A stretch of 64,000 bases of DNA from Astropecten irregularis (lineage: Eukaryota; Echinodermata; Asteroidea; Paxillosida; Astropectinidae), in contig OZ020252.1 in assembly GCA_963971285.1 (NCBI GenBank), forward strand, positions 20,559,662 to 20,623,661, in the 5' to 3' direction. Every line of letters begins with the position of its first letter. Position 1 is the first letter of the stretch. The notes beneath the pieces were generated by a model. It worked only from the letters and a program-made list of their open reading frames with translations, was not told the origin of the DNA and did no database searches. Positions 2,526 to 53,078 of this stretch are shown one piece after another. The translations under genes and the position numbers were made by a program.

Positions 2526-5500
2526 GTATTGTAATATGGCATTCCCCATTCCATTAAAATCAACGGCAAGGACTCTGAAATAGGAACAAAGTGTACAAGC
2601 CAATAGTTCTTGAATAAAGTGTTCATTTACATGCGATGTTAGAATGAAGAAAAGGGAAAGAATTCCACTGGTGACCATTATGGAAAAAATATTATATCCT
2701 CCAAATGTTAACTTATTGGATACACATTATGATGACCTTCAATCTTAGGTGTATAAAACTGGGGTAGTATATTTAAAAAAAAATGGGTTTTACAGGTTTT
2801 TTTAACCTACAAATTGTACACAATTGTGACGACAGGTTGCATGTTTCATAGAGTTGTGCACAAAATGATTGTCGTCAGTGGAATTCTTTCCAACAGTGCA
2901 GTCGTAACCGTGAAACACCGAATTCAAGTTGAAGTAAATTAAGAAAAACAACAACAACAAACAACCGGTGGTCAGTAGCTCATATAGAAAGCACAGGTAA
3001 AAACAATCATGCATTTAAAATGTTTGAATTGTACTACCTCTGACCATATTGATTAGAAAACCTGGGAGGTATAAAGGAAAATGAATAAATCAATTTATTA
3101 CTTAATAATAATGAAACGAAAAATGATGAGTAGGCCCATTTTTAGTAACACATTAAATTGTTTACAATCTACAACATCTGTGTTCTTGACGACATCATTC
3201 AGGGTCATTGTAGACCAGTTAGGACTAATGATTCCTGAAAAGTTGAAAATATCTCATTTCCCGATCCCATTGCTTTAAATGGCAACTGCATGAACACAAA
3301 TATCATTCTATACACATATGTATACATTGTACTCCTCGAGTAAATAGTCAGTTTGAGTTTTCTTCTTAGGTTTGCTCTCTGTATTTGATTTGCTTCTTTG
3401 TAGGTGATTTAAGCGAGATGATCCAGGCGAGGCGACAGGCCGAAGGGTACTTCTTACAAGACACCATCATGAACTGGTTCGTGCAAATGTGCTTCGCTCT
3501 ACGCTACATACATACCAAGAAGATCCTCCACAGAGGTAATGTATAAACACATGCTACAAATACTTTTCTATCAATTCTTGCAAGAATTGGAGAATTTTAC
3601 TTAAACCAGAACTGGGGCAAATTTCATGCAGCTGCTAAGCACAAAAAATTGCTTAGCAGAATAATGTCTTGCCCAATAAAACAAACCACCGTCAAAAAAT
3701 TCCATTTGATATTCATGGTCAGCGAACAACAGCCAAAGAACAATCACATGCAATACCACAACACATGGACATTTGGTTGTTTTTATTAAGACAGAAATGT
3801 CATGCTTAGCAAATTTTCGTGCCGTGAAATTGGCCCCTGGTGAAGAGATCCATGCACTCCTGGTAGCTAAAACAAATATTGAGACTTATTCAAGTGACGT
3901 CATGTACTACCGGTACCCTTAGATGCATGTTTAAGACGCGTTTTGATCTCATGTTACTCAGATCTTAAGCCGCAGAACATCTTCATGACAAGCAGGGGAG
4001 TCCTCAAGCTGGGTGATTTTGGAATAGCCAGGATGCTGCAGGATACCAATGACCACGCCCTGACAGCAATAGGCACTCCATACTATATGTCACCAGAGAT
4101 ATGCAGACGTGCTCCGTATCCTTTTCACTCAGATGAATTAGGGGATTACATGTAGATCCAATCCTATATGGATCGGTTTGCGGAAACACCATGTAATAAT
4201 CGTTCGTACTTTCGCACTTCTATATCGTTCGCACTTCTCGCAATTAGGTCTCAACGTTTCGACTAGCCTGTTCTAGTCCTCATCAGGAGACGATTGAAAT
4301 GAGGGATGTGGGGTCCTTATATATGACTCCTTGGGATTCTGTTCCATGGAGGAGCATTGTGATTGGTGCTCACTAAGGTGTGAGAGGATCCGATGTGTGG
4401 AAGGGCTTTTCTGATTGGTGCTCACTGTTAATATTGGGAAAATGGCTGCTAACCGCTTGATATCTTGACAAGACTGCCAGATTTCACGCCATCAAAATGT
4501 TCAATTCATGCCAATTTAAAAAGGCTCGGATTAAGGAATCCTGTTTGAAAAACCAAAAACTACAAGTACAAAACTGCAGCAAAACTGCTCGCCAACTAAA
4601 CAATTAGAACCGTAATACATAATTCTCAAAGTTAGCACGGCCTGACGTTTGGATCCTATAGCAGGATCTTTCTTGAAAGCTGCTCAGAGTTAGGAGGGCC
4701 TGTCGTTTCGATCCTAGCAGGATCTTTCTTGAAGCCTGCTCAGATTTAGGAGGGCCTGACGTTTCAATCCTAGCAGGATCCTTCTTGAAGGCTTCTCAGA
4801 GTTAGGAGGGCCTGACGTTTCGATCCTAGCAGGATCTTTCTCGAAGCCTGCTCAGAGTTAGAATGGCCTGACGTTTATATCTTTCTCAAAGGCTACACGG
4901 GAAATACTTCTTGGAGGAAATGATCCAAACGCCCGTCCCTCCTTAATCCGAGCCTTTTTAAATTGGCATGAATTGAACATTTTGATGGCGTGAAATCTGG
5001 CAGTCTTGTCAAGATATCAAGCGGTTAGCAGCCATTTTCCCAATATTAACAGTCAATTTCCACTTTATGGTTGTTGATTATTACCAGTATTTTTTGTGCA
5101 TCCTTCAAATTGCTACCATCAGCTACAATCAGAAGAGTGACATGTGGGCAGCTGGATGTGTCCTTTATGAGATGACGTCATTGGTACACCCATTCGAGGC
5201 ATCGGATTTCTCTTCGCTCGTCCTGAGGATTGTACGGGGTCGCTACAAGGCCATTCCAAGGTATTCCATTCCAGTTTCATCGAATAATAATTCCGATTTC
5301 AAACACTAGTCATCGATGAACTTGTTCCTTCGAGAATTGTCTTTTGGAAGTGCATTTGCGAGCTTTATAAATTAAGCAGCTTATCTTGTATCATTTATGA
5401 ATCAGCTAAGAGTCAAGCATAGATAGTGCATCAGAATTATAAATGTTTAAACTACCACAGGATCAGGTTCCTCGAACCTTGAAATATTTCTCAATGTCAT

Positions 5501-11587: not shown

Positions 11588-14500
11588 CTCTGAAGAATAG
11601 AACAAATAAAATAATTCTAATAATATAAGAAAGATTTGTGGTGACAATTGGTATGTGGATCGGTTTGAGGAAACACCATGTACGAATTGTCATACTTTTG
11701 CACTTCTATTTTGGTCTCCTGATAATGACTAGAGCAGGCTAGTCGAAGCCTTGAGACCTTACGAGAAGTGCGAATGAAAAAGAAGTGCAAAAGTACGAAC
11801 GATTCTCACATGGCGTTTCCGCGAACCGTTCCACTTATAATAATATACTTGATTTGATGAGAGATGTTGCTTCAATACATCAATTGACTGCAGACTGGTG
11901 CAGATTTTGGAGAAGGACAGCAGGACTGCGAGTGTTAGAACAATGGCTCTCCATTAAAAACAAAAAAGAACAAATTTTCAATTCCTTTTGTTCAAGGCTC
12001 TGGGCTCTATTTAAAAAAAAGTACTGTACTTAGGAATCTTCCTAATTCAATGTTCCTACAGTTATACATTATGTTGGACAAAAAAATCTGTTACAAAGAA
12101 ACAACTACATGAAACACAGCCAGATTGAAACGTAGAACTGAAATGATCCAAACCTGCTTTGCCTGAGACTGGTGCTATCCGCTGATATGAGTCTCTTTCC
12201 TGATGATGTGCGGTGCCCTGACTTGCTCTGCTTGATATCCATGGGATAGTTGCCAGGGTGCCTGTAGCTGGGACCTGTGGACCCATGGCGTTGGCTGACA
12301 TCCACAGTCTTGGGTCTTTTGCTGGGCTGGAAGACAAAAATCATACAAATGAAAATATAAATGGAAAAACCTAGCCAAAATCATGCTTGGAGTTAGGAGG
12401 GCCTCACGCGTTTTGATCCTAGTAGGATCTCTCTCAAAGCCTTTGAGAAAGATCCTGCTAAGATCGAAATACGAAAGGCCCTTTTAACTCCAAGCATTTG
12501 ATATATTTCAGGTCATTTTGGCTGATGAGCAGTTTGCAGCAGTTTATTACTTGTATTGGCAAAATCATATTAGTTCTGTGATGGATTTACACATGATAAC
12601 AGGCATCAACAGCAACAAAGACTAAAGAAAGATTAACCAACAAGAAGAGAAATGATGTTTGAATGAGCAAAATCACATCACCAGGGGCCAATTTCATGGC
12701 CCTGCTTAGCACAAGAATAAGGTTTGGTGAGGGCAAGGCCACTTTTCCATTGCAAGGGGCACTTCCATTGGAAAATCATAATGTGTATGGATACATTTGA
12801 AGGGGCACGAAGGCCAAGAACCAGGGCAATGAAGGCCATGGCCTCTGTTTATTTCCAGGCTTGTTTACATGTTCAAGGAGAAATTGCGTGGACTGGCAGA
12901 GACGACTTACTTTCTTGATGATTGCAACAATGTCTTGCACAGGAACAAACAAGCCAAAATTACGATGACACCAGAAATATCGCTTGCCGTGAATGAAACC
13001 ATCATGGCGGCCCACTACAAACAAAAAACAGACAGAATCATTATCACTACTATCATTATTACCAATCTAATCATCAAATAACTACAAAGGAAAATGACTG
13101 AATTCTTAAGTCATTAAAAGGTGAAAAAAGAACAATTGACTGGAACAGGATTCGAACCAGCGCCCTCCTTAATACCATACAGGTTGAATTTTCTTTTCAT
13201 GTAAAAAGGAAATCAAAGGACCAACTGCCTTGTATCTTACAAATCTAAAAACAAAAAAGACAAACAGTTGCGAGAAGACAAGCATAAAAAGGAAAGGGTT
13301 ATTCATCGCGGTAGATACAGATAAGGGAAAGAGCTGATGAATGATGAGGACATTTACCTGGTGCATCCAGTTCCAGACCAGCATAAACAACATGAGATGA
13401 TTGTGCCTTCTCTAGATGGCCGATGTAACGAATGTACCCTGTCTTGTCACCTTTCGTCGCTACGTGGTCGTCAAGATGAATGGTAAACCTGTTGGGAAAA
13501 CAAGATCAGGAGAATATGAAAGAATGCCAAAATAAAGATACAACAAATATTAGTTGGTTTGGGTTTTTTTTATCAGGGACAAGATTTGATCATGCTGTGC
13601 TGATTGGAATGGTGACAAACACATTGTATGGAAATTTGCACTGAAATCGGTTGAAACAAACTAATTAGAAAAACAATTTTAAGCAAACAACCAATCTAGC
13701 TTTGACATAGTGTGGCTCTGTTGCTACTGTATGTAAAGCACCATCTGAAATCCAGCAACTAAACTCACTGATCAAAAGAATCAAGTAATAATTTTTTCCT
13801 AAATAAACTAAAGTTGAAAAAACCTTTGAGTCAAACAGAAATCTGTGATTTGATTGGAAAAAGTTATGGAGAGGTGAACAAAGAAGACTGAACCTAAGAC
13901 CTGCCAACCAATCAACCAAGCAGTGAGCTAACTAGCCCTATGCTGGTTGACATAATAGGTCACTGGTTCAAATCCTGTTTCAGTCAGTATTCTTTGTTCA
14001 CCTATGAATAATTTCTACTCATCTGATTTATGACTAACCTGTGGTTGACGCCCCGTGTGACCGTGTGTCCCTGAGATGGAGTGACCTGTCTGCTGCCCTC
14101 CAGCTGCGGTTTCTGGCAAGATGCGCACAGACACCCTGATATGAAGTGCTGGGCAGGTGGGTGGGGAGGGGAATGCGTGCGAGGTTGTGACGGGGGTTGC
14201 GGGCTGGTCGGACTGGTGCGACTTGCAGACGCAAAACTGCCAGGGAAAAAAAATGAATGCAATGTAAAAACATATCCACGACTCTTTCGGTATTTCTTAA
14301 ACATCCACTTAAAATGAAATATCATATATTAGGTGAATGCAATACAAAATACTGACCGGATTCCATTTTCTACTGAAATGACAGAAAAACCTCACTTTAC
14401 AAAAATCTTCCATAATCTTCAGCTTGGTCACTGTGACGACATTATCTAGAAAGACTTTACCTGGAATTAGGGCTACCATGTCGATGGTTGTGAGCGTGCT

Positions 14501-17500
14501 CGGCTCGGTTGAGCATGGGCAAACTGAAGGACGTTTCTGATTGGTCGTCGGCCTCGGTGCTTGGAGCTTCGGACCAACTCCCATTCATCTCATTCTCAAT
14601 CCTGAGACCGCACATTTTACTCTGCTGTAAGACAATCACACAAAAAGATACATTAAATTTGGCTTTTAAATCATTTTCCTCCAAAGAATTTAAAGCGCCA
14701 TTGTTTGTTGAGCATAACATTCGCAAGGATTGTTGGCTGGCATACTGATTTTATTTGCCAAGGTTTTTGGTGCTTCAGCCAATTTTGGTGCATATAGCTG
14801 CTCCTTCTTTATTTACCTTCAAATGATATACACCGATCCGATGGCACGAAAATACTATCCACCGTTACTGCAGTGTCCCCGCCCACATTTTGAGTGTAAT
14901 ACAAATCCGACTTGAAATTCAAGTAATTGGCCTTGCGGTGTATCAGAGGACATACACCCTGCAGTATAGAGTGCGACAGAGTGGATATTTGTTTGTTGCC
15001 ACTCAGTGGACACAAAATGCGGACGGGGACACCGCAGTAATGGCAGACAGTATGTCGTGCCGTCGGATCAGTCTATTCAATAACAATAGAAATGCAATTC
15101 CAATCAAGACTTAAGATATAAACACACAATAATGATGGATGTAAATTTCAGACAGATTGGACACACTAGCTGACCGTCCACTGTTCAACTGACCTCATTA
15201 TGCAGTGCCTCAGTGATGGTCAGTTTTTCCCTGAGGTCATCAGCCTCCTGCTTGGCCTTCAGTAGATCCTCCTCAAGTCTGCTCTGGGCACTGCAAACTA
15301 AGAATCAACAGAAAGAAAAACAGGCCTCAGCAGGGGGATGCATGAGTGAATTGTAGAGGTCTCCTCTAAGGTAAAGCTGGTGGTGTGACTGGCTTGGCTA
15401 CCTGTCAGGTGTTAGCCTGTTTAGCTGTTTTGGACATGTTCTGTTTCACCAGCAGTTTATATATCCAGGGGCTTGAAAGTGACACCAATTAGACAGTTCA
15501 GGACGCTCAAATTGGACTTGTAGTACAAGGCATTGATGACCATGCTACAGAAGTGAAGAAGGAAGTTACCAACTGAGAATTATGGTATAACACCCTAGCG
15601 TACGTCAAGAGATATGGCATCTGGACTTCCAACCATTTAGGACCCCGTTTTAAGTTTTGATTTTGCTTCCAAGCATATTCTCCGGTCTTACCTTCCATGT
15701 ACTTCTTCTTCAGTTCCTGGTTCTCCTCGGAGAGACTGGAGCATTGGACTTCCTTGGAGAACGTCTCCACGTTCATTCTCTTGACCTCAAGCATGCTGTC
15801 AAAAACCTGATCATCCTAGGGGGAATGGGAAAGAATATTTCATGTATAAAATAATGATGACGACTTTCAGCCAACATCCTGAGCCATCAAACAATTAAGC
15901 ATAGCTTCTAACCATTTTCCACAATGAACAACCTCCAATGAAGACAACTCTCTTTCAATATACAATTACATTTGCACTAGTAGCAAGCAGAAGGTAGTGG
16001 GTTTGAATCCAACCTGAGCCAGTGCTACTTCAATAAGTGCTGAGTATGAAGCTGATATATACATCAAGTGAAGGGCAAGTGTAATCTGCATAGATGCACA
16101 TACTGTTGAGGTTTGTCTAAGAACGTTCCAGAGAGAGAACCATACCTCAGTGCTGGCATCCAGGGACTGGGCGTGATGAACCTCTGCCGTCACTAGGTAC
16201 TGATTGGGCAGGAGCTCCGTGGACGAATGATGGTGGGTGCCTGAGTCATGTGACTCAGTGGAGACGGTGGATTGGTTGAGGGCCCGCTCCAGGCGCGGGG
16301 AGGAAGCGAGGGAGGAGCACGGGCTGCATCTCGACGAGGAGTGAGATGAAGTCTGCAAGCAAAGACAGAACAATGAGGGCACCCTTCTTGCAATATATCA
16401 CCACAATCAATCAAACAAGGCTATTGTGAAAACTGTTTCATAAAAGTTGTCAAATTTCTTCAAACTCTTGTACATTATATGACTACGGTATGATGAATCA
16501 GCGGGCATTCTGGACTGACACAGATCTGAGTTGGACAACTGTAAAGGATGTTTTGAGGTGGCATGGAATTTTGAACACAGGGACAACAGCATTTAATAGA
16601 ATTAAAGAAACTTGGTAATGAGTTTCAGTAAAAAGTTATGGCCAATAAATGTCACAATTTCTTAATATCAGAGGCTGAAAAATTATTTCCTTCATGAAGG
16701 GCTCTGCACTCGAGGTATTTATAGAATACACCCTTTATATCGACAGCTATAGTTACTCGGATGTTCGGACAAATTTCACAACGTTTACGTGTAAGTTAAT
16801 TGGGCAACGTGCGACTTGTTTGTCTGAACTTCTGAATGTGACGTCACGAGCACGGAGCCCTATTGATTGTTATTTTTTGACAATGGAAAATTGCTGGTTG
16901 GATGCAATACACACCTTCTGATTAGAATTGCGGCGATGTGACAGGGAGGCGGAGTCAAAGCATCTAAAGGAGGGGGGTGTCGGGCTGGTGGAGCGGCTCG
17001 TCCGATTGCTGCCGCTACCGGACAGTTGGCTGTTACGTCTGAGCTTCAAGAGCTCCTTGTGCTGAAGCTCAATCGTCTGTTCCAACCTGGGCAAAGGAGA
17101 AAGAACACATCCATAGTTTATGATAAACGTGATTGATCATTGGAAGATTTTGTCCTGATCCTCTCATCCATTTATGTGCATCTTTTACTTGCATGCTCTT
17201 GTCCTCTTGTCATTTAGCCTTTGAGAAAGATCCTGCTAGGATTGAAACCGTCGGGCCTTCGTAACTCCAAGTATTTTATATTTTCAGGTCACTTTTGGCT
17301 GATGAGCAGTTTGCAGCAGTTTATTACTTGTATTGATCATTGCAAGATAGTTACCAGTAGTTACTCCCAAAATACAATGTGCTGTTTATTATGCACCCTA
17401 CCCTTCAATTTGCAATGTAGCGTACCCATCATCCTTCATTACCCATGATGCAATGCATTACCCATGATGCAATGTAGTACCCATAATGCAATTGAGTATC

Positions 17501-20500
17501 TAGATTCTTTGGTCAGTTCACAATTGTCACATGTGTAAAAAGGAAACTGAATGAAACCATCGAGCAAAGACCTTGATCAATGATTAAATTGTACATCCCC
17601 ATTTACGGTACCTGCACATCAATCACATTCATGTACATGATTTCCTACATCACTACCTTGACATGATAACTTCCTCTTTCAGAAAGAGGACACAGAGTTT
17701 CCTCCAGGAAGTTCCATCATGACAGAGGATGATCCCAAAGTTACACAATGCACTCACTGGACCAAACAGTCCCATACAATAGAACCAGTCAAGCGTGTCA
17801 GTTCAGGGAAATATTGTTTACTCCAGAGGGCTTGATATTAACATACAGCAGTACCAAGTGTCAAGGAAAGCAAGGACAATGTTTGTTCCATTACACTATA
17901 CATGTACATGTATACATGACTCACTGGACCACTATGTTATTCACAATACACTGAATCAGAATCCACAGCCTAATAAAACCCAGATTCTACCTGGTAAAAA
18001 AATGGGGAAAAACTAACTCTGAATGACAGCTTATTACAACTTATAGAGTATAAAACATATTACCGGTATATGAAAGAAATTTCAAAGTAGAACTTGCTTT
18101 AAGTTAGGAGGGCCTGACGTGTTTCGATCTTAGCAGGATCTTTCTCAAAGGCTCACTAGCGCTAATCGGGCATTCGCAATTTATGGGAACTGACATGGCA
18201 ACTTCTGCGTCATGACGCCATACAAGGATCGAGTGCCTGGCTTTTAAGCCACAACTATCAGCAGCCAAAAGGGATACCTTTGAGTTGCCATACTCTGGGC
18301 ACTGGTTGGATCCTTGTGCTTCATGAACTCCATTGCAATGAACAAATCAACCAATGTTCCTCATTACATATACATCCTTAATAAACACAAAGACTTTAAT
18401 CAAATTACTGAGCCATGTGAGTACCAGGGTATTTGTGCTGCTTCCTATAGTGTACATCTATTACAACTGTTGGGATCTTATTAGCTTGTTTACAGGCTCC
18501 ATGCATATACAGTAATAAGGAATCCTCATGCACCTTCAATTGTGTTTTGTAATTACCTGTATCAAATTTGATTATTATGTGTAATTCTTCCTTCCTCCAT
18601 GGTGTAATCAAGTATAGGTGATGGATCAGAGGGTAAATCCTCCGAATAATGTCGCGGAATCACTACAAGATGGGTCACTCACACTCACAGGAATTGTGTG
18701 CAAATATTGCTGGTCTTACTCTATGGTTGTGAGACATGGACCTTGACTGGGGACCAGGGGAGGCGACTCATTGTCTTCGGTCTCTGAGGAGGATCCTTAG
18801 GTACTGCTGGTCGGACCATGTGTCTAACGAGAGGTTACTCAGGGAGAGTCAGATGAGACCTATTGACTGAGTACAATGTCTCAAATATTATTTAAAAGAT
18901 AATTTTAGTACAAAAGAACCCCCCAAACCAGCAATATAGAAATTACGGCAAACTGAAAAAAACCTGCATGTACCTGCCTATCCCAGTTTGCATACAGTTG
19001 TCGGCAGAAAAAAAAGGAAGGAAAAGTCAGAAGGCAAGTTAGCTTTGACTGGGGAGATTAATGCTGTAATCACCAACCAATCTATCTAATGATCCTACAC
19101 CGTGAATAAGAGATCATCACAGGTAATATAAAACCACTTCCACTGGCAAAATCACATCTTGCAAAATGTTCAGCCTTCCGGAAACATGAGCCTTTTCATC
19201 TCTCTCTAACGAGAAAAAAACAACAACATGTGTCCGTGACTAGCCTGGCTGCCAGTTGCAGGAGTTTGCCTCGTCTTCAAGAGACTATTGAACGAGGATG
19301 TGCCAGGCTAGCTCTAGTCGTAGAAAGAGAGTTCAGCGACCCTTCTACACCCCCCTCTACCACCATCACCTCATAGGATCATAGTGAGGCATTCCTCTCT
19401 TGTATTGCAACCAAAGAGCCACGGTCTTTGTTTGCTAACCAGCTTCTATCCTCTAGCAAGCTACGAGGAATGCAGTCCTGGATCTTTTGTCCATCCATCA
19501 GACAATGCAAGGAAACCAGCCCACCTCTGCTTACACAAATTTTCAGCGGTAATTGCAAGTGGAAAGGGGGGGTGATGACAGAAAAAAGGAATGAATAGTC
19601 TACAAAGTTGAATGGGGCGAGTTCTCTTTTAGAGGGTTTAACGGGGGAAAGATTGAAGGCATGGAACTGTGATTCAAGACGAGAGAGGGAAGGTTACAAT
19701 AGGATGAGATTCGGGGTAGAATCGTCCTTGGTAGACTCTTATTCTCTCCAGCAGGCTTTGACGTTTGTTTGCAAGCTAAGGGCTCCGACTTTCAATGCTT
19801 TGTGATTCTAAGCTGGGGCCAGTGCCCCCCTGGGCAATATACACTCTCAATGCTCCACCCTTTAAATCCCCAATCCAACATCCGACCATTGGGGGCTGTG
19901 TCAGACACGAGCCATACAGTTTGGGGTTGAGGGTTGGGGATGCGATGCAAGAGGATTTTGTAAGTCTACTCTGTACTCACAATTAAGCAAGCTATGAAAC
20001 CACATAGGACATTTCATCAGAGATACCCAATGCTGTGTAGATGCATGCTGTTGGTTTTTTCTTCATTTTTTCTCCCTTGTTTTGATTTTGAGGCAAGTAA
20101 GGAACATTTGACTGAGCCAGGGAATGAACCCGAGACCTACAGATTAATGTGCCACAAGTTTGAGTCCCCCAGCCCTAGTATGGAGGGGCTCTCCTTTTCA
20201 TCCAATATTCCTGCTTGGCAGTGGCGCAACCGCGCAACTTTAAATACCACAAAAAAATCAGTCAAAACAATCCGACAATAAATCTTCAACCTTTCTTAAA
20301 ACGGGCACCGAGGAAAAATCGGAGAATTGAAGGGACTGAGAAGTACATGTAGGTAAATGAGCAGAAAGATTTATGTGTTGCTCCTCAAACATGAAATGTA
20401 CTCCTTGAGCAAAGAAAAATATAATGGTCTGTTTGACAGTAACCCGACCCCCAAGTACCTGAAATTCAGGCTGGACAATCTGCCCACTTCAGACTTTATT

Positions 20501-23500
20501 TGCCATTTGCTACTTATGTAAAGCCAGCACATCATTCTCATAACAGGCCTATGATTATTTGCTCTCAAATGTAAATACTTTCCACAAAATCTTCTTTGAC
20601 CTTTAAAGGTACAGTACAGGATTGGTAACATACCCAAACAGAAATGTTCACAGATTTACGTTTAACTTTCAGGGTATGAAGATGGTGCTGGTAGAAACAA
20701 ACTGTTAAAATATTTCTGCCTGAAATGGTGTAATTATTCAGAAATTAATCAAACAAAGACCGAAAACAGTTTTGATCTCGGGGTAAAATCAAAACCATTC
20801 TTTATGTTTTATACAAAAAATTGAGTCGGGTTTTTGCTATTTTCTTGTGACTCAGATGTCAGATTGAGCTCAAATTTTCACCATTTCATGCACAAGCTGG
20901 ATCAGACAAAGTGTGAGTGCTGTTCTGTGACCTTTACCAATCATGTATTATACAACTGAAAGTGAAGTGAACCTTACTGGATGTGACAGAAAAGTGAGAC
21001 TAAGGACCAGATACTCTAGATCTATGTAAGCCCTGAAAAAAAAAAAGATTACGGTACCTGCCACGACTGCACGTACCTGGAAACTGACAAACTGCAGGGA
21101 ATGTTCCTGTTTTTGTGAGGGACATACAATGAACTCCTACCTCAATACACTTCCCTTTCTATTTGATGTTACACTGGTGTATGTATAATGTAGGCCCTAC
21201 ATGACAAAAAAAAGGTCAGCTAAAATCCAGCTAAAAGTGGGACAATTCCTGAATTGTACAAAACAACACACAATGTGAAAGTCAATGCACGTATGAGAGA
21301 CCCACATAATACCAATAGGGCCTATATCTTATCATCACTCACTTTCATCTTAATACAAAAGCTCACCCTAACCCTTCACCAACACAAAAAGAGAGAGAAA
21401 GATCGAAATCTTATTGGGAACACGGGACAATCTACCAGGGCCCAAAGTGCCAAAAAACGATGGAGGAGGGAGAGGTGCCACCAGCCCCACTTCTTTAATA
21501 GGCCTCTATTTGCCAATGGGCTCAACGGACCCCAATGTAACAATGTACAAAGATGAAGGGAACATGAAAGCCCTGGTGAAACTCAAACAAGTCCAGTTAG
21601 CTCTGGGAGAAGGGTTTATGACACCTTACCAGCCAGCAGGCTGGGTCTAGGGGAAGGTATACTCAGACTCTCTGGGGCTTTTGCCTGAGCTTCCACATTT
21701 CTGGTTCTCTTCCACAAGCAGCTGCAACACTCGGCTAATGTTACTGGTTTCAAAAGAAAGAGCGGGTATTGCTCAGCAGAAAGAGCGAGTATTGCTCAGC
21801 AGAAAGAGCGAGTATTGCTCAGCAGAAAGAGCAAGTACTGCTCAGCAGAAAGAGCGGGTATTGCTCAGCAAAAAGAGCAAGTATTGCTCAGCAGAAAGAG
21901 CGAGTATTGCTCAGCAGAAAGAGCTAGTACTGCTCAGCAGAAAGAGCAAGTATTGCTCAGCAGAAAGAGCGAGTATTGCTCAGCAAAAAGAGCAAGTATT
22001 GCTCAGCAGAAAGAGCTAGTACTGCTCAGCAGAAAGAGCGAGTATTGCTCAGCAAAAAGAGCGAGTATTGCTCAGCAGAAAGAGCGAGTATTGCTCAGCA
22101 GAAAGAGCGAGTATTGCTCAGCAGAAAGAGCGAGTATAGCTCAGCAGAAAGAGCAAGTATTGCTCAGCAGAAAGAGCGAGTATTGCTCAGCAGAAAGAGC
22201 AAGTATTGCTCAGCAGAAAGAGCGAGTATTGCTCAGCAGAAAGAGCGAGTATTGCTCAGCAGAAAGAGCGAGTATTGCTCAGCAGAAAGAGCAAGTATTG
22301 CTCAGCAGAAAGAGCGAGTATTGCTCAGCAGAAAGAGCAAGTATTGCTCAGCAGAAAGAGCGAGTATTGCTCAGCAGAAAGAGCGAGTATTGCTCAGCAG
22401 AAAGAGCGAGTATTGCTCAGCAGAAAGAGCGAGTATTGCTCAGCAGAAAGAGCGAGTATTGCTCAGCAGAAAGAGCGAGTATTGCTCAGCAGAAAGAGCT
22501 AGTACTGCTCAGCAGAAAGAGCAAGTATTGCTCAGCAGAAAGAGCAAGTATTGCTCAGCAGAAAGAGCTAGTACTGCTCAGCAGAAAGAGCAAGTATTGC
22601 TCAGCAGAAAGAGCGAGTATTGCTCAGCAGAAAGAGCAAGTATTGCTCAGCAGAAAGAGCAAGTATTGCTCAGCAGAAAGAGCAAGTATTGCTCAGCAGT
22701 CATGAGCATTTTTGGCTTTTTTTGCTCCTGTTCATTTTGCATGGTTAAACAGAGTGTCACATTAATGGTGTTGGATCAATGTGATGACATTACCATGTGT
22801 TGTGTCGCAGTATGGCAGGCAGAATGACAAACAAAACAACACTTTGTTGTATCTCATCATACATTGTACTTAATTTCCATAATATCATTCATATTATGCG
22901 GTAATGAGGTATTATCCATATAAAGAGTTTCTGCCAAAATTTGCCCTGATACTTGTTTAACAATTCATTTCTGCTGAACATTTCTGTGAAAAAAGGATTT
23001 TTACATCTAGGCACAGGGTAGAGGTGGGTTTGAAGGGGTGGCTAGTACTAGTACCGTACGGGGATAAGGGTTATAAACCCAATACTGCAGGCTGAAAGCT
23101 GTGGGCGCGTTCTTCCATTGACTGGGATAATCACAGCCAATAAAACTGGGGATTAGGAACCAGGCTGCGGTCTACCGATCTACCGTGAGCTGGTATTTTC
23201 CGCTGTGGTCTACCAGACATTGAGGACATCAATCTCTTTTATCTAGGAGGGCTTCTTCTTCCAGGAAGATGCTCATTACCAGGGGCTTGCCTTGTCATTT
23301 ACAGGAGCAGTCCAGGGTTGAAATGACTGGTTAGTAGAATGGATAATAATAGTGTCTCTGATCTGGTTTATGTCAATGGCTTTCAGGGGTTGAGGGAGGC
23401 CATTGTTACAGGACTGATTCTTGAAGTAAAGTTAACTAGCTTAACGGCGCTTGACAGCCCAATCCAGCATACCTACTGGTACAATGTACTGTACCAAAGA

Positions 23501-32500: not shown

Positions 32501-35500
32501 ACTTCTGAGTCGGATGTAATCATGGTAATGTACGGGTGCTCTCTATCCACAAGCGCAGACTCCGCTTCAACAAGCTTAAAGCCTAATCAAGGAATGAACG
32601 GTAAATGTACACAAGAGATTACCGGCCACTTTCGTTTTGGAATCCTATGCATTGGCTGAAGCACTGCTACTTGTGTTTGGCATGTCACACTACAAAGCTA
32701 AGCTCACCGGAGTCCAGCCAAGGGGGGCCCGGGGAGGGCAAGGAACCAAGTCGCAGAGTGGCACAAGGACTTGTGAATCTCAGCCTGGCTATTGATCAGA
32801 AAGCCTTACAACTGTCCAGGCCCCGGGTGCATGATGCACACACAGTAGCCTGGCAACTCGGGTAGTCATTGGAAGGGGAGAAAGCAGAGGCAACACAATG
32901 GGAAGTTGTCCACCGATGGTGGTGGGCCATCAATCGGACGGTCGGCCAGAGCCGCAGGGAGGACAATAGCCAGGGTGGCTTAAGCCAGCTTAATATGAGT
33001 ACTCATCAATCGGGGGAACAGTGAGCGGGATAGAATAAGCTGCAGACTAGAGGCTGTTCAGACATGTATGCAGCATACAGATTCTCTTGCCAGTGGGCCA
33101 GAGTTCGCATCTTTCATGTAACTGGTTAAGACCAATCTTCGCTATAACAGTCACGTAATAACAGTTACGTAAGGCACATCCAAATTAAAGTGATTCTCAA
33201 GCCAATAAATAAACTATGTAACTCAAATCTCAAAATCTGACCTTTGACTTTAATAAAGACTAGATGTTAACCTGAAATCAGATATTCTTAAAAATACAGC
33301 GTGGTGGTAATACTGTAATTCAAACACAAGTTTTTAATGGCGCCCTCTTTTGATATGACCAGTACAAAGAAACTGCTGTGGTGTTTGTTGGTCTACATGC
33401 ACTGCACAGGTCTGCAACTCCGGCTCGGTACCCGTACGCGGGGCGTGATTTATTCCTGAAAGGGATATTCGGCATAGACAACATTTCCCGGTTTTTACCG
33501 CCGGTCTCTTGCTCATGGTTACACAAAAAAACATAATAGCTCTGCTTCTGGTTATCTGACCGACCCTGTTTTTTGGCTGCGACCCTAATGATTTTAGGAA
33601 GTATCCAGTTCTTCAGTTGCCTGATATCAGAAGGCTAAACAGTACCAGCAGCCGAAACATCGCTATCAGCAACACGACATTGCGTGACTTTGATCACCTT
33701 TTTTCCTTATCTGTATCCACCGTGATGAATAATCCTTTCGTTCTTAACAATTTTATCAAGAAAAAATTGAAAAAAGTTGTATTATTATCACAGTACAGGA
33801 TTGGTAATAATTATATTTACCCAAACAGAAATGTTCACAGATTTAAGTACAACTTTAAGGATATGGAGATGGTGCTGGTAGAGACATACCATTAAAATAT
33901 TTCCCCCTGAAATGGTGTAACTTATCCAGAAATTAACAAAAGACCGAAAACAGTTTTGATTGTTTATGTTGTATAATAAAAATTGAGTTAGGGTTTTGCT
34001 ATTTTCTCATGACTCAGATGTCCGAATTAACCTAAATTTTCACAGGTTTATTATTTTATGTAGGCGTACATGTTTGATCAGACAAAGTATGAGTGCTGTT
34101 CTATGACCTTAACCAATCATGTATTATACTAGGGTATAATACATGATAAGCCTTGACTGCGTGGAGATGCCTCCAATCCATATGATTGTACACACAAATA
34201 TTGGTAAAAAGGAAAATTCCCTATTGTACCTGCCTTTGGAAGTTTGGAAAATAAGCAATCGTTACCCTTACTGACATTTGCAAATTAAAATTTTAGCCTT
34301 TATAACTCAGAAAGATCCAGCTAGGATCAAAACATCAGGCCTAGCATCAAGCATTTTGTAATTTGTATTTTTGTACATATGTGTTTTTTTAGGGGGGGGG
34401 GGGTAAACTATTCATCTATTCCATTCTAAGCTTGCCTGGATTGTGACCAGCTTCTCTCCAGAGTTCACCTCTTCATTGTCAACCTTCTGTCAATCTTTCT
34501 GCTTCTCTACAATTCAGAATGAAGAGTTTCTATACTCACTGCAGTCAGTCCACTCTCAAGAAAAGTACATACACCCACCCTACATACTGTAGTTCAGAAT
34601 ATGCGTGTATGTATGGTGCACTGTGTTGTATTCCTCTCTCCCTCTATACCAAACTCCAATTTCAATATCTTCATTGTTGGTACTCACTTTTTCTACACTC
34701 TTTTTTCATTTCCATTGCTTTGTGGAGTTTTTAAATTGTGCGTGCGTAGAGTACAGTGCCCTGTGCTGCATGTTGAACTTGGCATAAATGCCATACTGTA
34801 CGTGTTAAGTAACCGTACTAGTTTAGGACACATGCCACTGCTTGCACGCAGATGGTTAGTACACTTGTGTACACAAGCAGTGTACATGTTTGCATGTTGC
34901 TGTATATGTAAAGGCGTAGAATACCATCTTGTCTTGGAGACGTACAAACTTCAAAATTTGTTGCAGAAAACTACAAACGAACATCATTATCCCCTGTCAC
35001 CCACTCCCTAGGCTGTCAATTTCTAGGGCTAGTTTGAATGTGACTGCTGTACATTGTGTATGTTTGTACAGTACTTTATTCCTCCATGCTATAATAAACT
35101 TTTGTACAGAGCAGGTGTTCAAAAAAACTGAAATTTTGAGTTAAAAATAGAATCTTGTAATTGACACAGAAATTCCTATTTCTGTTAACACTGCCAATTA
35201 ACGCTTTAGTTTAAGTTTAAGATCCAAACAGGATCTTTCCAACTAGGATCCAAACGAGTCAGGCCCTCCTATTAACTCCAAACATTTTATAAATTTCAGG
35301 CCATTATTTTGGCTGATGAGCAGTTTGCAGCAGTTTATTACTTGTATTAATTGAGGTTATTACTTGAATTAACGCTTTACATGTAAGAATGTATTTGGAA
35401 CTAAACGGTGCCATAAAATTAGAAACTCGAGCCATGATGGCCCTGACTCAAATACAAGTTAGGAAGTTTCTAATTGAAGGGGGTGACACAATTCTACTCG

Positions 35501-52792: not shown

Positions 52793-53056
52793 AACTTTGA
52801 AATAATTATGGCCAAATGGATGTGCAGAAGACTACACTTTTTTTTTTGGCCATTTTCTCAAAATGCGACCAAAATTTGACCTAAATCATCTTTCCTTCGG
52901 TAGGCATACATCATCCCTGAGATAGTTTTTTAAGGTTTCCTCCCCTGTGGTTGTTTATTTTGATGATAATGTTGATTAAAAAAGGCGCATCCTCTTTGCG
53001 GCATGGGACATGGTGGTTAACGAGTGGTTTCAGCTTCTGACTGCCAAACGGCAGGG

Positions 53057-53078
53057 TTAGGGTTAGGGTTAGGGTTAG
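53057..53078 (+). repeat. interstitial telomere-type repeat, three TTAGGG
   Basis: GGGTTAGGGTTAGGGTTAGG followed by GTTAGTG. Flanks (TTCTGACTGCCAAAC before, ATCCACCAACAT after) match 41503-41552, where the tract is absent; the hexamers therefore lie within a dispersed repeat. Confidence 0.8.

Follow-up and report, generated by a model that had tools for sequence, protein, structure and literature searches.

The five tandem units at 4623–4895 of the window (the whole stretch of 64,000 nucleotides that was analysed) are, judged by their sequence, decayed members of a dispersed family of 56-bp repeats. With a probability of roughly 0.55, this family is a small non-coding retroelement, most likely of the PLE/retrozyme kind, in which a hammerhead-derived segment appears to have been tandemly amplified and one core pair swapped; the inverted arms around the array would be a separate matter. 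The family, its layout, its 3′ tail and the inverted copies at its 5′ side are all evident in the sequences compared. The RNA of the family would correspond to the GAAACGTC strand and would consist of one or more 56-nt segments with a minimal hammerhead layout, in which U3-A8 stands for C3-G8, followed in many copies by the tail. Insertion would use a helper enzyme and proceed by target-primed reverse transcription, the hammerhead segment may have been multiplied through slippage or through rolling-type copying of a short circle, and intact units may be able to cleave after GUC.

The array, its family and the inverted arms

The array is located in an intron whose flanking exons, in a joined reading, match a protein kinase domain (Pfam Pkinase). 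TRF, nhmmer, model R2 and the letters themselves place five hammerhead-like units on the minus strand, of the 56–58 bp length given in the original prediction; the five unit starts are spaced 58, 56, 56, and 56 bp apart, and TRF reports a period of 56 with 4.5 copies and 88% matches at 4625–4876. The hammerhead parts of the units, on the same strand, were located by the letters and by model R2, whose training rows include three of the five target units, at 4640–4680, 4698–4736, 4754–4792, 4810–4848, and 4866–4893. A decayed 3′ tail of the family, recognized by blastn and alignment, lies behind the last unit at 4561–4622 (minus strand); the blastn match is to 17216–17332, at 72% over query positions 138–258.

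The units are less uniform than had been described. The layout of the unit motif is seen, but GAAACGTC is exact in two of the five units and the GCCT/AGGC pair is exact in two of the five (minus strand). The GATCC hairpin, which was said to be in every unit, is present in four and lost in one, and the TTGAGAA core, although it is the family consensus, is read by a single target unit, with TCAAGAA in three and TCGAGAA in one. U4 is changed in four units, G5 is changed in three, and stem II is missing from the fifth; the units at this locus therefore probably do not cleave. The minisatellite reading taken up below draws on this decay and on two further results: the target array folds no better than shuffled sequence does (z −0.15 on the minus strand and −0.21 on the plus strand), and Rfam scans of the units, at a lax threshold too, gave no hammerhead match. 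CRISPR repeats, mir-296 and RUF20, which came up in low-threshold Rfam scans, all scored far below their gathering scores and were rejected. A descriptor for the variant motif matches none of the five units, and a model built from PLE-type hammerheads only lists no unit of the target array up to E 10 in a search of the window, presumably because the array is too decayed. Random decay of stems and core, which had been named as evidence against a ribozyme, is thus what the target locus presents, with no unit passing either the descriptor or the PLE-only model, but it is not what the family presents. Since folding, Rfam and the descriptor fail on these five units, their hammerhead likeness rests on the family.

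A genome search with 4424–5053, in which 40 of 2189 candidates were scored, turned up 124 matches, and these were grouped by hand into at least 40 arrays, a sample of the scored candidates and not a census. Outside the target locus and its arms, it is the array portion of the query that is matched, with one match extending into the tail portion (138–471). With nhmmer, 258 units were collected from 22 loci, the five target units included. Their consensus is AGCCTTTGAGAAAGATCCTGCTAGGATCGAAACGTCAGGCCCTCCTAACTCTGAGC, in which the columns of two CpGs vary the most, and TTTGAGAAAG is read by 197 of the 258. One consensus across 258 units and at least 40 arrays argue for a dispersed family. A single contig of 12 Mb (C30) carries 28 of the 40 arrays among the matches listed, which is either an enrichment or an effect of the listing.

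Further copies of the family are found at 12383–12496 (an inverted pair), 17216, 18095, 34295, and 35231 of the window. The first of these belongs to a plus-strand copy at 12383–12574, composed of an inverted unit, a unit and a 3′ tail (nhmmer, tail matches, letters). The copy at 17133–17348 (plus strand; descriptor, tail match, letters) features one unit with the variant motif at 17216–17256 and a 3′ tail. Single units are located at 18095–18154 on the minus strand, where the variant motif is kept at 18112–18152 (nhmmer, descriptor), and at 34295–34342 on the plus strand, where the unit is decayed (nhmmer, model R2). The last copy, at 35196–35379 on the plus strand, has a 3′ tail and a flanking direct repeat (tail match, direct-repeat test, letters).

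The perfect inverted arms that had been reported were confirmed: all 114 positions of the left arm (4424–4537) are complementary to those of the right arm (4940–5053), no strand being assigned to either, and both the tandem array and the arms are plainly beyond chance. A search of the organism's own genome (475.7 Mb, 168 contigs) with the left-arm query 4424–4560 returned only two candidates, which are the two arms; this search ignores very common words, so it is good, not absolute, evidence of a single copy. When inverted pairs spanning the main array were sought at the 22 loci with units masked, the window locus gave the 114-bp perfect pair and none of the 21 other loci gave comparable arms. 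Fifteen of them have no array-spanning inverted pair at all. The remaining six have one to three such pairs, the perfect ones of 24 and 17 bp and the longest of 388 columns at 76% identity, all of them hundreds of bases off the array, and these are taken to be copies of other repeats.

These results bear on the possibility that a transposase moves the whole as a foldback or MITE-type DNA transposon, with the arms as its terminal inverted repeats and the tandem repeats in its interior. In its favor are the perfect arms, the TTAA near both of their outer ends, which is compatible with a TTAA target, and the inverted 5′ copies of unit and tail within the family. There is also a precedent in Tetris of Drosophila virilis, a foldback element in which inverted arms occur with internal tandem repeats; in the available text of PMC4079207, however, Tetris elements form a multi-copy family and have their terminal repeats in common, whereas the arm found here occurs at the target locus only. 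That restriction led to the rejection of the arms as ends of a repeated transposon, the spanning pairs at other loci are few and unlike them, and no direct repeat is seen in the letters outside the arms at the target locus. A foldback origin is accordingly judged quite improbable. The array and the arms look like two things, not the one arm-bounded element that had been proposed. In the retroelement reading, the arms are best taken for the result of a separate, one-off event that duplicated otherwise unmatched sequence locally, in inverted orientation, on the two sides of the insertion, and their identity for the mark of a recent duplication or of conversion that keeps them alike; a local duplication would explain the arms with no transposon of their own.

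Hammerhead layout and the 3-8 core pair

The family consensus, which reads on the minus strand at the target, features stem I, a 7-nt core plus one extra purine, stem II, and GAAAC-GUC. It folds as a GCCU/AGGC pair with the 8-nt strand UUGAGAAA, a GAUCCU..AGGAUC hairpin and then GAAACGUC, the extra nucleotide before stem II being an A. Stem I, stem II and GAAA..UH stand in the correct order and spacing in the consensus but not in all five target units. The core reads UUGAGAA, not CUGANGA, and the two differences are at positions 3 and 8, so that C3-G8 becomes U3-A8. Positions 3 and 8 of the hammerhead form a Watson-Crick pair (PMC2837043, in the part of the text available), and the mismatch pointed out in the original prediction is therefore a double change of one pair. 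U-A is found at 3-8 in 242 of the 246 units (of 258) that have both letters. Within the 22 loci the pattern CTGANGA..GAAAC..GTH matches only two copies of another family, the PLE-type family described below.

G12 is the general base of the hammerhead. It is kept in 71% of the 258 units and replaced by C in 16% and by A in 12%; the 29% of non-consensus letters speak against the PLE/retrozyme reading, and the change from G12 to C is not a CpG change. Outside the CpGs the core varies by 2.4% and the spacer by 4.0% (raw percentages, 258 units). On such figures, selection for cleavage in the family is not clearly indicated. The relaxed descriptor, which was drawn up after the units had been seen, has three matches in the window, at 17216, at 18112 and at the PLE-type hammerhead; 60 Markov-resampled windows contain none. 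In the 22 loci it gives 62 matches, of which 59 read TTGAGAA, 1 reads TTGAAAA and 2 read CTGATGA. The two CTGATGA matches belong to the PLE-type family, and the other 60 keep the whole variant motif, with G12 intact as in the consensus.

A canonical minimal hammerhead of the PLE kind, GTCTC CTGATGA G GACTAG..CTAGTC GAAAC GTT GAGAC, is located directly left of the array in the same intron, at 4248–4291 on the minus strand. It was found by motif scans, among them one for CTGANGA..GAAA, and is absent from the original prediction; it has one extra nucleotide before stem II, as does the consensus unit, and scores 11.7 bits against Rfam Hammerhead_3, far below the gathering score. It is part of the remnant of a PLE-type element at 4165–4423 (minus strand), identified by similarity to 11652–11833 and to loci L002 and L016, with a tail at ~4165–4247; 4292–4423, unlike 4165–4291, matches neither 11652–11833 nor L002/L016. 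The second PLE-type copy, at 11652–11833 on the plus strand, is short and palindromic, with an inverted tail, a mutated hammerhead (11714–11757) and a tail. The plan of this family is thus a hammerhead, a ~85-nt tail and, at 11652–11833, an inverted tail before the motif. The label PLE-type is a classification made here; it is based on PMC6155905, which, as far as its available text goes, describes PLE hammerheads as minimal and without helix III.

The two families were compared with an unguided MAFFT alignment, in which seven units and three PLE-type hammerheads fall in one register; three target units are in this alignment, which leaves out the first and the fifth together with the 34295 and 35231 copies. 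Over ten named pairs, 92.9% of the cells are paired, where shuffled alignments average 81.5%; the covariation score of 0.484 compares with 0.265 for shuffled alignments, and neither value is reached in any of 500 shuffles. When the partners are slid along the alignment, pairing falls to 27–45%. The register, the pairing and the covariation favor the PLE/retrozyme reading. Both sides are changed in 5 of the 10 pairs, 3-8 among them, and 93 of the 500 shuffles reach that number, which counts against this reading, as does the exclusion of target units 1 and 5. The covariation essentially amounts to a single difference between the two families. Covariation inside the 56-bp family alone, where the original prediction had suggested looking for compensatory changes in the stems, was set aside, the units being too similar to inform on it.

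Model R3 was built from three PLE-type hammerheads only and run unfiltered. In the window, the PLE-type copies score 70.6 and 68.7 bits and the next match is an unrelated A-rich stretch (15.2 bits, E 0.089). On 10 of the 21 other array loci, every match above 11.6 bits, the score of the best non-unit match, is an array unit, the best at 17.1 bits (E 0.012). That the top matches are array units in ten loci is in favor of the PLE/retrozyme reading. The consensus unit itself obtains a weak score of 16.3 bits (E 0.02), and its closeness to the 15.2 bits of the unrelated stretch, together with the absence of an Rfam hammerhead match, is against it; the support that this model gives to the units is weak to modest. 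The proposed hammerhead layout can thus be upheld for the family, through the MAFFT register and the PLE-only model, but not for the five target units by folding, Rfam or descriptor.

The same evidence is what an ordinary minisatellite in a small non-autonomous element has to account for, with the hammerhead layout as an accident of a hairpin beside GAAACGTC. The narrow difference in R3 scores, the variable G12, the folding and Rfam results and the decay of the target locus would all suit such a repeat. It is less easily reconciled with a register that came from an unguided alignment, with pairing and covariation scores, the 3-8 pair included, that exceed all 500 shuffles, and with the adjoining canonical PLE-type hammerhead, which has the same extra nucleotide and the same motif-plus-tail plan. 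A minisatellite is considered unlikely, though it retains a real share of the probability.

Tails, inverted 5′ copies and flanking repeats

The ~75-nt 3′ tail was traced as a shared sequence in the GAAACGTC sense, with 16 matches in the 21 loci and the window, 5 of which end exactly in ACTTGTATT. At the other side, 6 of the 22 main arrays begin with inverted units, and at L009, L020 and L021 an inverted tail is also present at the array start. In both the 56-bp and the PLE-type families one extra nucleotide precedes stem II, a 3′ tail is present, and some copies carry an inverted tail or unit on their 5′ side; this common plan supports a PLE/retrozyme-like element. Pieces of a 5′ region upstream of the units are common to 17149–17216, L009:1386–1505 and L019:1410–1451, so that a longer parent element may exist. 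The 1480 bp upstream of array L019 contain no long frame in the three forward frames, and a coding parent there was rejected.

Nine tail-bearing copies were tested for flanking direct repeats. The copy at 35196 has a 13-bp direct repeat, AATTAACGCTTTA, at 35196–35208 and 35367–35379, the right copy of which starts 18 bp past the tail end, and the copy at 17133 has a 17-bp repeat with 1 mismatch around 17133 and 17333, which overlaps the tail end by at most 3 bp. In a control search at 150 random positions of the window, 6 reached the level of the weaker repeat and two that of the stronger one. Each repeat alone is modest evidence, which is strengthened by the position of both immediately outside the element ends; target duplications are suggested at these two copies. 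The other seven copies have direct repeats in the chance range. Short ones at the 12383 copy (9 bp, at 12337–12345, 12561–12569, and also 12772–12780) and at L017, with scores of 8–9, were set aside as chance level by the same control. The 13- and 17-bp repeats argue for the PLE/retrozyme reading, and the seven copies with chance-level repeats and the exact tail end in only 5 of 16 matches argue against it. A pattern of long target duplications and a fixed 3′ end, at which the sequences hint, would be in keeping with target-primed insertion.

Relation to known elements and other repeats of the window

The unit shares with the minimal type I hammerheads of PLEs a stem I, a stem II, GAAAC-GUH, almost no stem III and a place beside a 3′ tail; it differs from them in its UUGAGAA core, where they have CUGANGA, and in the return of the motif every 56 bp. 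Przybilski and Hammann (2007) reportedly found that any Watson-Crick pair at 3-8 permits cleavage in two type III hammerheads. The hammerhead-bearing pDo500 satellite DNA of Dolichopoda crickets provides a comparison for the core: in the available part of PMC2837043, C3, G8, and G12 are mutated in 4, 2, and 1 of 198 sequences, whereas here the 3-8 pair is exchanged and G12 is variable. In another PLE hammerhead, a C3G/G8C double mutant partly regains cleavage (PMC11167929, as its accessible sections report), which is in favor of the PLE/retrozyme reading.

Animal non-LTR retrozymes carry type I hammerheads and, like the present family, are non-coding tandem repeats that contain a hammerhead motif and occur at many dispersed sites (Cervera and de la Peña 2020, PMC7229834). 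According to the accessible part of that paper, their units are 150–450 bp long and circular RNAs have been demonstrated; here the DNA has a 56-bp unit with a variant core. These elements lend some plausibility to a live mini-retrozyme, in which tandem transcripts would self-cleave to 56-nt monomers, ligation would close these into 56-nt circles, and the circles would be copied back into arrays. Homogeneous arrays of 5–23 units, the 60 matches in 22 loci that keep the whole variant motif and the reported tolerance of the 3-8 pair would agree with it. The unit, however, has about one third of the length of the shortest published retrozyme repeat, G12 is not conserved, and the terminal unit and tail differ from the internal units, so that the element is not accounted for by a 56-nt circle alone. 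Such a cycle is therefore a long shot, and the stronger claim of a natural U3-A8 hammerhead lineage in the smallest known retrozyme, with 56-nt monomers that cleave, circularize and re-insert as arrays in an animal genome, is improbable to the same degree.

For the retroelement reading as preferred here, the consequences depend on activity. If intact units cleave, they would represent a natural double exchange at the core Watson-Crick pair, in 242 of 246 sampled units, in a repeat about one third the size of the shortest retrozyme repeat published, and natural RNAs would let the freedom of the 3-8 pair to change be tested. If they do not cleave, the family would be an instance of a ribozyme-like repeat whose spread followed the alteration of its core; this would fit the in vitro finding that PLE insertion does not need hammerhead cleavage, as given in the available text of PMC11167929. 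No account of a 56-bp unit or a natural U3-A8 core was found among the open-licence papers listed, which is weak evidence of novelty, and a pattern scan of viral contigs gave 0 matches. The ‘mirage’ minisatellites of amphioxus, which in the part of PMC3087553 available duplicate intron-exon boundaries and have units of 10–160 bp, were considered as a parallel and rejected.

Several other repeats are present in the window. A 23-bp tandem repeat with 41 copies at 21755–22699 is open in more than one reading frame. Self-blast of the window revealed an interspersed repeat of ~360 bp with many copies in both orientations, located at 20603, 33790, 50465, 52426, 53795, 56070, 57674, 58346, and 62338. 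Additionally, TRF identified a short interstitial run of the telomere-type hexamer TTAGGG, with 4.3 copies, at 53053–53078.
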